Of a stretch of 64,000 nucleotides of DNA, positions 7,566 through 13,630 are shown piece by piece. How positions within the stretch are numbered: position 1 is the first letter of the stretch; each line of letters begins with the position of its first letter. The position numbers were made by a program, and so were the translations under genes. The stretch is from NCBI RefSeq assembly GCF_017876625.1, contig NZ_JAGIOH010000001.1, positions 5,415,501-5,479,500 on the forward strand, written 5' to 3'. The DNA comes from Streptomyces syringium. Its GTDB lineage: Bacteria; Actinomycetota; Actinomycetes; Streptomycetales; Streptomycetaceae. Below the pieces are notes generated by a model that did no database searches, was not told the origin of the DNA, and was given only the letters and a program-made list of their open reading frames with translations.

Positions 7566-7695
7566 GCTCGAAAACGTCCCAGGAACGAGCGACACCGTCC
7601 CGTCCTTGAGGTGAACGTGACCTGACCGGACCGCCATCTGTCCGGATCGTGGACATCGCGTGTCAACCACCGGGACGGCGGAGTACGGTCCCGCT

Positions 7696-10273: not shown

Positions 10274-11614
10274 ATGGGACGACAGCACTGGAAGAAGATC
10301 TGGGTCGGCTCGGCCGGCAACATGGTCGAATGGTTCGACTGGTTCGTGTACGCCAGCTTCGCCACCTACTTCGCGGGCGCCTTCTTCCCCTCGGGTGACG
10401 ACACGGCGAAGCTCATGAACACCGCGGGCCTCTTCGCCGTCGGCTTCTTCATGCGCCCCCTCGGCGGCTGGCTGCTCGGCCGCGTCGGCGACCGGCGCGG
10501 CCGCAAGTCGGCACTCACCTTGACCGTCACCTTGATGTCGGCCTCCGCCGTACTGATCGCCATCGCGCCGACCTACGCCGTCGCGGGCTACGGCGGCGCG
10601 GCGGTCCTGCTGGTCGCCCGGCTGCTCCAGGGCCTCTCGGTCGGCGGCGAGTACGCGGCCAGCGCGACCTACCTCACCGAGGCGTCCGCGCCCGGCCGCC
10701 GAGGCTTCGCCTCCAGCTTCCAGTACGTCTCCATGACCGCGGGCCAGCTCGTCGGCCTCGGCCTGCAGATCCTTCTGCAACACACCCTGTCCGACAGCGC
10801 GCTGCACAGCTGGGGCTGGCGCATCCCCTTCATCGTGGGCGCGCTGGGCGCGGCCGTCATCTTCTATCTGCGGCGCAACATGCTGGAGACGGAGGTGTAC
10901 GAGGAGTCGGGCGAGACCTCCGAGGAGGACCGCGGCACGATCAAGGCGCTGCTGCGGCACAAGCGCGAGGCGTTCCTCGTCATCGCGCTGACCATGGGCG
11001 GCACGGTCGCGTACTACACCTACACGACCTACCTCACCAAGTACCTCTCCAACAGCGCGGGCCTGTCCAAGCAGACGGCGACCCTCGTCAGCTTCTGCGC
11101 CCTCTTCGTCTTCATGTGCCTGCAGCCCCTCGCGGGCGCCCTCTCGGACCGCATCGGCCGCCGCCCGCTGCTCGTCACCTTCGCCGTGGGCTCCACCTTC
11201 CTGACCGTGCCGATCATGACGCTGCTCGGCCACGCGGGCTCCTTCTGGCCGGCGCTCGGCCTGGCCCTGCTGGCGCTGATCGTCGTCACGGGCTACACGT
11301 CGATCAACGCGTGCGTGAAGGCGGAGCTGTTCCCCACCGGTGTCCGGTCGCTGGGCGTGGCCCTGCCCTACGCCATCGCCAACGCGCTCTTCGGGGGGAC
11401 GGCGGAATACGTGGCGCTGTGGTTCAAGAAGGGCGGCATCGAGTCCGGCTACTACTGGTACGTGGCGGGCTGTGCGGCCGTCTCGCTGATCGTCTACCTC
11501 ACGATGCGCGAGACGCGGGACATCGACCTGAAGAACGTCGGCACCACGGGGACGGTGATCCCGGCTCGAACCACGACCGAGGACGCGACGGAGGCCAGTC
11601 GTCCGGGTGTCTGA
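10274..11614 (+). CDS. MFS transporter, metabolite:H+ symporter (MHS) family
   Basis: The 446-residue, 12-helix protein has the MHS-family N-terminus GNMVEWFDWFVYASFATYF, the MFS loop motif GRVGDRRGRKSALT between helices 2 and 3, and the helix-4/5 motif ARLLQGLSVGGEYAASATYL. A second loop motif, GALSDRIGRRPLL, lies in the C-terminal half. Relatives such as KgtP, ShiA and ProP carry organic acids, shikimate or osmolytes by proton symport; the substrate cannot be read from sequence. The position between ilvE and cimA suggests, but does not show, uptake of a keto or organic acid. No convincing ribosome site precedes ATG 10274. Confidence 0.85.
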   Translation: MGRQHWKKIWVGSAGNMVEWFDWFVYASFATYFAGAFFPSGDDTAKLMNTAGLFAVGFFMRPLGGWLLGRVGDRRGRKSALTLTVTLMSASAVLIAIAPTYAVAGYGGAAVLLVARLLQGLSVGGEYAASATYLTEASAPGRRGFASSFQYVSMTAGQLVGLGLQILLQHTLSDSALHSWGWRIPFIVGALGAAVIFYLRRNMLETEVYEESGETSEEDRGTIKALLRHKREAFLVIALTMGGTVAYYTYTTYLTKYLSNSAGLSKQTATLVSFCALFVFMCLQPLAGALSDRIGRRPLLVTFAVGSTFLTVPIMTLLGHAGSFWPALGLALLALIVVTGYTSINACVKAELFPTGVRSLGVALPYAIANALFGGTAEYVALWFKKGGIESGYYWYVAGCAAVSLIVYLTMRETRDIDLKNVGTTGTVIPARTTTEDATEASRPGV

Positions 11615-11758
11615 TGACGTCACCAGCCCGCGAAACCAAGCCTGCCCGGCGCTTGAGGGCGACACTGACCGCAGCGTGGGACGCAGCCGCATCGCCGGAG
11701 GCATCCGCATCGTGAGACTCGGCAGCGCCGACGCGAGACACCGTGCCAGGATGGCACC

Positions 11759-11809
11759 ATGCTCTCGTTCGCCATGATTATTGGCAGCAGGCGCGCCGGT
11801 CCGCAGTGA
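11759..11809 (+). CDS. Putative cimA leader peptide with tandem Ile codons
   Basis: A 16-residue frame, MLSFAMIIGSRRAGPQ, begins at ATG 11759 with AGGA seven bases upstream and ends at TGA 11807. Codons 7 and 8 are ATT ATT, an isoleucine codon little used in such GC-rich genomes. It ends 53 bases before an intrinsic terminator and 186 bases before the citramalate synthase gene, whose pathway leads to isoleucine. This is the arrangement of ribosome-mediated attenuation. The peptide itself would have no other function. Confidence 0.65.
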   Translation: MLSFAMIIGSRRAGPQ

Positions 11810-11862
11810 CCGCCTCGTACCAACCCGTACGACGCGGACACCGTCGTCCCAGACCCGCGCGC
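11791..11862 (+). promoter_or_regulatory. Candidate alternative pairing segments of the cimA leader
   Basis: GCGCGCCGGTC (11791-11801, inside the leader peptide after the Ile codons) can pair with GACCCGCGCGC (11852-11862) with one mismatch in 11. The second segment abuts the terminator stem. A ribosome stalled at the Ile codons would reach the first segment. Other hairpins (TCGTAC...GTACGA) lie between them. I could not compute the competing folds. Confidence 0.4.
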
Positions 11863-11891
11863 AGACCTCTCGCACCCGCGAGAGGTCTTTT
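11863..11891 (+). terminator. Attenuator-type intrinsic terminator upstream of cimA
   Basis: A perfect 11-bp stem (11863-11873 with 11878-11888) closes an ACCC loop and runs into TTTT. It lies after the Ile-rich leader peptide and 104 bases before cimA, so it would stop cimA transcription unless prevented. Confidence 0.85.
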
Positions 11892-11995
11892 CGTTTCCCG
11901 GCCCACCACGCCGGAGGCGCACCGCGCGGGATCATAGGGGGACGGTGGAACCGGTTATTCCGGTAGACCGAGATCTCGACAGGAGTCAGAGCAGC

Positions 11996-13630
11996 ATGAC
12001 GGACGCACCCGAGGACGGCTTTCCCGCCGAGGACGGCCTTCAGGTCGACGACAGCTTTCACGTCTTCGACACGACGCTGCGCGACGGCGCGCAGCGCGAG
12101 GGCATCAGCCTCACCGTCGCGGACAAGCTGACCATCGCCCGGCACCTGGACGACTTCGGCGTCGGCTTCATCGAGGGCGGCTGGCCCGGCGCCAACCCAC
12201 GCGACACCGAGTTCTTCCAGCGGGCCGCCGCCGAGATCGACTTCCGGCACGCGCAGCTCGTCGCGTTCGGCGCCACACGCAAGGCGGGCGTGCGGGCCGA
12301 GGACGACCCGCAGGTCGCCGCGCTGGTCGACTCCGGCGCCCCGGTCGTCACCCTGGTGGCCAAGTCCCACGACCGGCACGTCGAACTCGCCCTGCGCACC
12401 ACGCTGGAGGAGAACCTCGCGATGGTGCGGGACACCGTCGCCCATCTGCGGGCGCGGGGACGTCGCGTCTTCGTCGACTGCGAGCACTTCTTCGACGGCT
12501 ACCACGCCAACCCCGGCTACGCGACGCAGGTCGTGCGCACCGCGCACGAGGCCGGCGCCGACGTGGTCGTGCTCTGCGACACCAACGGCGGCATGCTCCC
12601 CGCCCAGGTCCAGACGGTCGTGGCGGCCGTGCTGGCCGAGACCGGCGCCCGGCTCGGCATCCACGCCCAGGACGACACCGGCTGCGCGGTGGCCAATACG
12701 CTCGCCGCCGTGGACGCGGGCGCCACGCACGTGCAGTGCACCGCCAACGGCTACGGCGAACGGGTCGGCAATTCCAACCTCTTCCCCGTGGTCGCGGCGC
12801 TGGAGATCAAGTACGACCGGCGGGTGCTCCCGGCGGGGAAGCTCGCGGAGATGACGCGCATCTCGCACGCCATCGCCGAGGTCGTCAATCTCACGCCCTC
12901 CACCCACCAGCCCTATGTGGGGGTCTCCGCCTTCGCCCACAAGGCGGGGCTGCACGCATCGGCGATCAAGGTCGACCCGGATCTGTACCAGCACATCGAC
13001 CCGGAGCGGGTCGGCAACACCATGCGGATGCTCGTCTCCGACATGGCCGGACGGGCATCCATCGAGCTCAAGGGCAAGGAGCTGGGCATCGACCTCGGCG
13101 GCGACCGCGCCCTGGTCGCGCGCGTCGTCGAGCGCGTGAAGGAGCGTGAACTCGCCGGCTACACGTACGAGGCCGCCGACGCGTCCTTCGAACTGCTGCT
13201 GCGCGCGGAGGTCGAAGGCAGAGCCCGCCGCTACTACCGCGTGGAGTCCTGGCGCGCGATCGTCGAGGACCGCCCCGACGGTACGCACGCCAACGAGGCG
13301 ACCGTGAAGCTGTGGGCCAAGGGCGAGCGCATCGTCGCCACCGCGGAGGGAAACGGCCCGGTCAACGCCCTCGACCGCGCGCTGCGCGTCGCGCTGGAGC
13401 GCATCTATCCGAAGCTGGCCGCCCTGAAGCTGACGGACTACAAGGTCCGCATCCTGGAGGGCAGTCTGGGCACGGGCTCGATCACCCGGGTCCTGGTCTC
13501 CACGAGCGACGAGCACGGCGAGTGGTCCACCGTCGGTGTCGCGGAGAACGTCATCGCCGCGTCCTGGCAGGCGCTCGACGACGCCTATGCCTACGGTCTG
13601 CGGCGCGCCGGGGTCGAACCACAGGAGTAG
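11996..13630 (+). CDS. cimA: Citramalate synthase (LeuA/CimA family)
   Basis: The protein condenses acetyl-CoA with pyruvate to (R)-citramalate, the entry to an alternative route to 2-oxobutyrate and isoleucine. It has a DRE-TIM metallolyase domain at the N-terminus with FDTTLRDGAQREGISLT, CDTNGGMLPAQ and HAQDDTGCAVANTL, and a C-terminal LeuA dimer/allosteric domain from about residue 400. The 544-residue length and sequence resemble the actinobacterial CimA group. 2-isopropylmalate synthase is the main alternative; an upstream leader with paired Ile codons favours the isoleucine branch. ATG at 11996 is used because AGGAG lies 11 bases upstream; a GTG 17 codons earlier is in frame. Confidence 0.88.
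   Translation: MTDAPEDGFPAEDGLQVDDSFHVFDTTLRDGAQREGISLTVADKLTIARHLDDFGVGFIEGGWPGANPRDTEFFQRAAAEIDFRHAQLVAFGATRKAGVRAEDDPQVAALVDSGAPVVTLVAKSHDRHVELALRTTLEENLAMVRDTVAHLRARGRRVFVDCEHFFDGYHANPGYATQVVRTAHEAGADVVVLCDTNGGMLPAQVQTVVAAVLAETGARLGIHAQDDTGCAVANTLAAVDAGATHVQCTANGYGERVGNSNLFPVVAALEIKYDRRVLPAGKLAEMTRISHAIAEVVNLTPSTHQPYVGVSAFAHKAGLHASAIKVDPDLYQHIDPERVGNTMRMLVSDMAGRASIELKGKELGIDLGGDRALVARVVERVKERELAGYTYEAADASFELLLRAEVEGRARRYYRVESWRAIVEDRPDGTHANEATVKLWAKGERIVATAEGNGPVNALDRALRVALERIYPKLAALKLTDYKVRILEGSLGTGSITRVLVSTSDEHGEWSTVGVAENVIAASWQALDDAYAYGLRRAGVEPQE

Follow-up and report, generated by a model that had tools for sequence, protein, structure and literature searches.

The closest experimental precedent that we found for the element described here is the leader of M. 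tuberculosis ilvB1, which carries Leu-Val-Val-Ile (LVVI) codons. According to PMC13236596, replacement of LVVI by AAAA in this leader gives low, uninducible expression, its authors propose that a ribosome at the stop codon masks the antiterminator, and dependence of read-through on the tRNA charging of the control codons is reported for M. tuberculosis ilvB1 only. For the S. coelicolor ilvB leader, which has the same scaffold, codon replacement was without effect as cited in PMC1262725, a result that counts against an attenuator. PMC1262725 also states that no conserved structures stand upstream of amino acid genes beyond those described, cimA not being included, and the cimA leader is not among the eight S. 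lividans leaders listed in PMC8079986. A search of open-licence papers for Streptomyces citramalate synthase leaders or attenuation, and for Term-seq of branched-chain leaders, found no cimA attenuator described. Here we report an element ahead of cimA, in a 64-kb window (the whole stretch of DNA that was analysed), which judging by its sequence is very likely an Ile-sensing attenuator.

Features of the cimA leader region

The genes noted in the window are leuB, ilvE, a transporter gene and cimA, and the leader open reading frame (ORF) sits between the last two (Table 1). A first-pass annotation had described a 16-residue leader with two adjacent ATT codons, followed 53 bases after its stop (11810-11862) by a terminator with a T-run and then by cimA; this was confirmed, the cimA start lying approximately 100 nt 3' of the terminator (P2) and its T-run. 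ATT had been called an unusual Ile codon here, which is borne out by the counts, as it accounts for none of the 61 Ile codons in four window genes and for 6 of 344 in the adjoining 40 kb. The pairing proposed next to the terminator, here called P1, is real: its arms pair at 10 of 11 positions, with one C.C mismatch, and show compensatory changes. The view that the LeuA/CimA-family enzyme is ambiguous from sequence did not hold, since CimA scores 629.8 bits against the NCBIfam citramalate synthase equivalog TIGR00977 (cut-off 450), and the link to isoleucine is thus independent of the leader.

Table 1. Features of the cimA leader region (coordinates within the 64-kb window)
Feature	Coordinates	Strand	Remarks
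GCATCGTGAGAC box, possible operator	11707..11718	+	approximately 50 nt 5' of leader start; Streptomyces-conserved
Putative -10-like hexamer CAGGAT (CAGACT in most relatives)	11747..11752	+	6 nt 5' of leader start codon
Leader ORF	11759..11809	+	ATG 11759 to TGA 11809; 16 residues, MLSFAMIIGSRRAGPQ, then stop
Whole putative attenuator	11774..11892	+	covariance model R1 match, 57.1 bits, E 4.8e-14
Control codons ATT ATT (Ile-Ile)	11777..11782	+	first nt 14 and 11 nt 5' of P1
P1 5' arm (GCGCGCCGGTC)	11791..11801	+	30-locus alignment, compensatory change
P1 3' arm (GACCCGCGCGC)	11852..11862	+	P2 begins at next base
P2 intrinsic terminator hairpin, AGACCTCTCGC-ACCC-GCGAGAGGTCT	11863..11888	+	11 bp, 4-nt loop; T-run 11888-11891
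AGGAG ribosome binding site of cimA	11981..11985	+	sequence
cimA, citramalate synthase	11996..13630	+	TIGR00977 equivalog; HMGL-like and LeuA_dimer domains

The GCATCGTGAGAC box presumably resembles LtbR-type sites. TGAGA/TCTCA boxes of a similar kind stand ahead of several ilvB leaders, and the box differs from the published NdgR ChIP motif. The 15-bp form of the NdgR motif (GTCCACGATCCGGAC), as given in PMC4340878, has an exact match at 7640-7654, just 5' of leuB; NdgR control of cimA was rejected, the motif being absent between 11357 and 12034 with up to 2 mismatches allowed. Closer to the leader ORF, the -10-like hexamer keeps its position in a 30-locus Streptomyces alignment and across the class, and a promoter scan reported no consensus sigma-70 promoter. 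Because this box ends so shortly before the ATG or GTG, transcription probably starts at the first base of the leader ORF and the leader mRNA would be leaderless, as reported for other S. lividans leaders (PMC8079986). Between the terminator and the cimA ribosome binding site, positions 11918-11985 hold a Streptomyces-conserved block, GCGCGaGGGA...GGTGGAgCCGGTcATTCCGGTA, with an inverted repeat (CCGGtnATTCCGG), a possible candidate for an extra control site in the read-through RNA.

The folding energy of 11759-11895 is -67 kcal/mol, against -43.3 +/- 3.7 kcal/mol for shuffled sequences (z -6.4; 0 of 200 shuffles as good). P2 is the sole terminator-like site in 11560-12060 (shuffles give 0.1), and a descriptor for tandem abutting hairpins matched once in the 64 kb when both strands were scanned. 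A covariance model of the class element scored 57.1 bits here and 11.1 bits at its next best match. A known RNA family was considered for the leader and rejected: the Rfam search of the window, riboswitches and T-box included, gave only tRNAs above the gathering score, and the best sub-threshold matches in 11600-12050 were at chance level.

Conservation within Streptomycetaceae

The DNA upstream of cimA was matched in all 36 other sampled genomes of the genus, and the element is present ahead of cimA in every Streptomycetaceae locus inspected. The blocks conserved in the 30-locus alignment are a near-invariant GCATCnTGAGAC box, the -10-like box, GATTAT(T/C/G), the P1 arms and P2. P1 also varies in a compensatory way among family members, GCGCGC/GCGCGC becoming GCACGC/GCGTGC, and the altered pair is A-U in 9 cases and G-C in 91.

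Some Streptomyces carry an extra copy of the Ile leader, P1 and P2 away from cimA (L191/L198, L192/L199, L193/L200 and L194/L201), with a degenerate second copy in L190/L202. In L198 and L200 the gene that follows codes for a CimA-like LeuA_dimer allosteric domain and an ACT-like tail without the catalytic domain, and at others only a short ACT-like protein follows. By their sequence, these copies look like a stripped cimA duplicate that has retained the Ile switch and perhaps also an Ile-binding domain.

Conservation across the class

Outside Streptomycetaceae, most of the families sampled from the class also have the element ahead of cimA. Conservation of the Ile codons and of the terminator, the point on which the attenuator reading had beforehand been staked, extends far beyond Streptomyces, with the codons exchanged synonymously at a fixed distance from the hairpin. 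In all 149 parsed cimA elements, the first Ile codon within 15 nt of P1 begins 11-15 nt upstream of it, and P1 and P2 are separated by 0 nt in 136, 1 nt in 11 and 2 nt in 2. These counts are no census, as the automatic parser overlooked some that can be recognised by eye (e.g. L012, L025, L070, L115 and L117), and because the sequences are related they represent non-independent events. Every parsed element has at least one Ile codon and 131 of the 149 have 2-3, ATT outnumbering ATC by 234 to 57; since the two alternate synonymously, it is the amino acid that is conserved. The adjacent Ile-Ile pair of the first-pass annotation is upheld in that Ile codons are conserved, but it is not absolute, as 3 of the 30 aligned Streptomyces loci have ATG (Met) at codon 8, the second Ile, and family f11 (L141, L145, L146 and L147) has just one Ile, with Thr after it (CITT, CITP, CITT and LITH).

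The remainder of the peptide drifts. Its stop codon falls anywhere between 5 nt ahead of P1 and 27 nt within it, the frame is shifted among relatives (MSFAMIIG and VSAQLMIMDSSAPVLSDR, each followed by a stop), and ORFs elsewhere in the class are as short as MTHWMIII, VTTTVIIT, VAQALIIG and VTAVIIII. With stop position and frame so variable, what is kept is the codon and its distance and not the peptide. On the RNA side, the GCGC base of P1 is invariant and the ACCTCTCGC arm is conserved. Across 37 sequences from outside Streptomycetaceae, 95.4% of P1/P2 cells are paired, with 50 double-change cells against 10.8 in shuffled alignments and 2-10 with the partner slid, and P1 and P2 covary separately. 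In the class-wide sample cimA of several families is without the element, which is therefore dispensable there, and this weighs against the attenuator reading.

A covariance model (R1) was built from the same 37 sequences, with no Streptomycetaceae included, and its E-values are rough. It matches the window's genome at exactly two places, the cimA leader (57.1 bits, E 5.7e-12) and the ilvB leader (37 bits, E 4e-6), and has matches in 75 of 89 class genomes. A 31-nt P1/P2 junction pattern, which includes neither Ile codons nor protein, was scanned over 84,980 species and found in 60 places, 57 of them with cimA immediately downstream and three with no reference-protein match in the flanking DNA examined. 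The genera named include Micromonospora, Plantactinospora, Verrucosispora, Motilibacter, Prauserella, Amycolatopsis, Actinokineospora and Pseudonocardia. Ile codons occur at the predicted position in all 59 distinct places (1-3 each, 2-3 in 55), and ATT makes up 88 of these 124 Ile codons, against 6 of 344 in ordinary genes near the window.

A scaffold shared with other branched-chain genes

In the ilvB leader of the window's genome (MRTRILVLGKRVG, then stop) P1 likewise abuts a terminator. In 15 parsed ilvB leaders Leu/Ile-Val-Val-Ile/Leu codons occupy the stretch 8-17 nt ahead of P1, a Val codon always falls at 11, and the gap is 0-1 nt; the cimA element has the same features, namely codons 8-17 nt before P1, a GCGC base, P1 abutting P2, and a T-run. 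Family f6 of the sample, probably the mycobacterial family, has LVVI codons on the same scaffold. R1 also matches leuS leaders, where Leu codons stand at the same distance from the same two hairpins, and it detects the leuA and ilvA leaders described below. Codons by gene are thus Leu-Val-Val-Ile/Leu for ilvB, Ile for cimA, Leu for leuS and leuA and Ile-Thr for ilvA, the identities of leuS, leuA and ilvA coming from reading the translated proteins with no family search. As the codons match the gene while the scaffold stays constant, they follow the pathway.

In family f13 (L276, L278), whose sampled genomes are without a CimA match, the scaffold precedes a leuA-like gene and has Leu codons (MTNLLLT, then stop, in L276). 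In family f20 (L291, L292), whose cimA is without the element, it precedes a threonine dehydratase-like ilvA, and these leaders end in Val-Ile-Thr or Ala-Ile-Thr, joining product and substrate codons.

Proposed mechanism and alternatives

As in known attenuators, the leader ORF is rich in codons for Ile, the end product, the regulated enzyme being citramalate synthase, and a conserved, covarying intrinsic terminator with a T-run lies between the leader ORF and cimA. The trp-type arrangement was not found, as the terminator shares no strand with P1 (gap 0-2 nt in 149 elements). We consider it probable that this is an Ile-specific ribosome-mediated transcription attenuator of cimA, a member of an actinobacterial scaffold common to the ilvB, leuS, leuA and ilvA leaders, in which P1 favours read-through. 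The leading edge of a ribosome lies approximately 12 nt past the A-site codon, and with the observed codon-P1 spacing a ribosome with the first Ile codon in its A site would be flush with P1. Under a shortage of charged Ile-tRNA, a ribosome would wait at this codon, the uncovered P1 would form, and transcription would continue into cimA; when Ile-tRNA is plentiful the ribosome would read through the Ile codons, reach a stop that lies shortly ahead of P1 or within it, and cover the P1 5' arm, so that P2 could form and transcription would end. With P1 formed when Ile is short and covered when it is plentiful, the physiology requires that P1 favour read-through, and both the M. tuberculosis ilvB1 AAAA result and the stop-masking proposal agree with this. 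The Ile-attenuator interpretation of the first-pass annotation is in this way partly supported. Its stalled ribosome, said to cover part of 11791-11801, is not; P1 would be covered by a ribosome that has reached the stop codon or gone beyond it. Its competing structure does exist beside the terminator, but is no classical antiterminator, having no overlap with it.

A classical antiterminator was also rejected on folding, since P2 persisted in all the folds displayed when the ribosome footprint was masked and the RNA refolded. When upstream segments were searched systematically for pairing with the terminator arms, neither arm had a partner exceeding the shuffled-sequence level, and the best alternative helix of the 5' arm averages 4.3 bp against 4.8-5.6 bp in shuffles. 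With no strand common to P1 and P2, and no upstream partner better than in shuffles, the textbook overlapping antiterminator is absent, and we propose instead that P1 acts by abutment. In the least certain step, P1, as a rigid GC helix with no linker to the base of P2, would keep the P2 stem open within the RNA exit channel. This way for P1 to oppose P2 without overlapping it is something that we infer and that energy models do not show; on thermodynamics alone the predicted fold allows the two to coexist, directly stacked. A broader proposal, which we put forward tentatively and with less than even confidence, is that in actinobacteria ilvB, cimA, leuS, leuA and ilvA use one interchangeable scaffold whose antiterminator shares no strand with the terminator and acts by touching it, the linker-less helix preventing the terminator stem from zipping up inside RNA polymerase, with specificity set only by the codons one ribosome footprint upstream.

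The compatible, directly stacking hairpins could suit the opposite role, in which P1 aids termination as a pause hairpin or as coaxial support for P2 and a ribosome stalled at Ile melts the base of P1 and so lowers termination; with the ribosome on the second Ile codon, 1-4 nt of P1 would be hidden. Against this, the first-Ile ribosome is flush with P1, it is the non-stalled ribosome that is placed to cover P1, and uninterrupted translation should give read-through, whereas the M. tuberculosis ilvB1 AAAA leader is low (PMC13236596), so we regard this role as unlikely. The invariant GCGC base and the conserved ACCTCTCGC arm might also be read by a protein or other factor, with the leader ORF secondary, and the S. 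coelicolor ilvB codon replacement without effect (as cited in PMC1262725) points the same way; that older result conflicts with the attenuator reading and remains unexplained. A protein site, however, would need neither codons that track the pathway nor a codon-P1 distance held fixed amid drifting flanks, which makes such a factor very unlikely.

It is more doubtful still that the terminator just ends an upstream transcript while cimA has a promoter of its own downstream of 11891. The conserved Streptomyces block between P2 and the ribosome binding site could hold one, but an ordinary terminator would not hold Ile codons at a fixed spacing, and across the class the element is accompanied by the leader's conserved -10-like box and start codon. 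The RRAGPQ C-terminus, fully conserved in most Streptomyces and similar to the SecM RAGP motif, raises the idea that the nascent peptide itself arrests the ribosome, which we find scarcely credible: the ORF ends earlier in L061-L065 (MSFAMIIG) with the RNA letters kept, and it is frameshifted in L101 and others. As a general mechanism an RRAGPQ arrest peptide is refuted by these early stops and frameshifts. Since the letters are kept where untranslated or frameshifted, the P1 arm is conserved as RNA and RRAGPQ is a by-product of its translation.

Implications and comparison with known systems

The attenuator reading gives a rule that works on sequence alone, by which codons 11-15 nt before a GC hairpin abutting a terminator reveal the controlling amino acid. 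It points to RNA-level feedback control of the citramalate route to isoleucine across much of the class, makes the old disagreement on the Streptomyces ilvB leader testable, and poses the question of how a non-overlapping hairpin disables a terminator. Codon swaps could yield a compact amino-acid sensor for Streptomyces.

The proteobacterial trp, his and ilvGMEDA attenuators resemble the cimA leader in having a leader peptide rich in the pathway amino acid followed by an intrinsic terminator, but their antiterminator shares a terminator strand and P1 of cimA does not. SecM/RAPP-type arrest peptides have RAGP at the C-terminus in common with most Streptomyces cimA leaders, whereas the cimA peptide is far shorter, its residues are lost or frameshifted in relatives, and the R-A-G/P-P residues are not conserved as a peptide. 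Most actinobacterial leuA genes have been described as carrying a pseudoknot LEU element, which the scaffold ahead of the f13 leuA-like gene does not resemble. Nearer to cimA is the Streptomyces leuS leader (LeuL2; PMC8079986, PMC1262725), which shares the model match, the codon distance and the two hairpins but has Leu codons, an aminoacyl-tRNA synthetase gene, a CCGCGC base of P1 and a gap of approximately 2 nt. The actinobacterial ilvB/ilvB1 leader is described (PMC1262725, PMC13236596) as forming mutually exclusive structures, while no common strand is seen in the cimA element; it has Leu/Val/Ile codons and not Ile only, and regulates acetolactate synthase. Like cimA, the ilvB/ilvB1 leader (PMC1262725; PMC13236596) combines a short ORF of branched-chain codons, a GCGC-based P1, a terminator abutted at 0-1 nt and a match to the same model.
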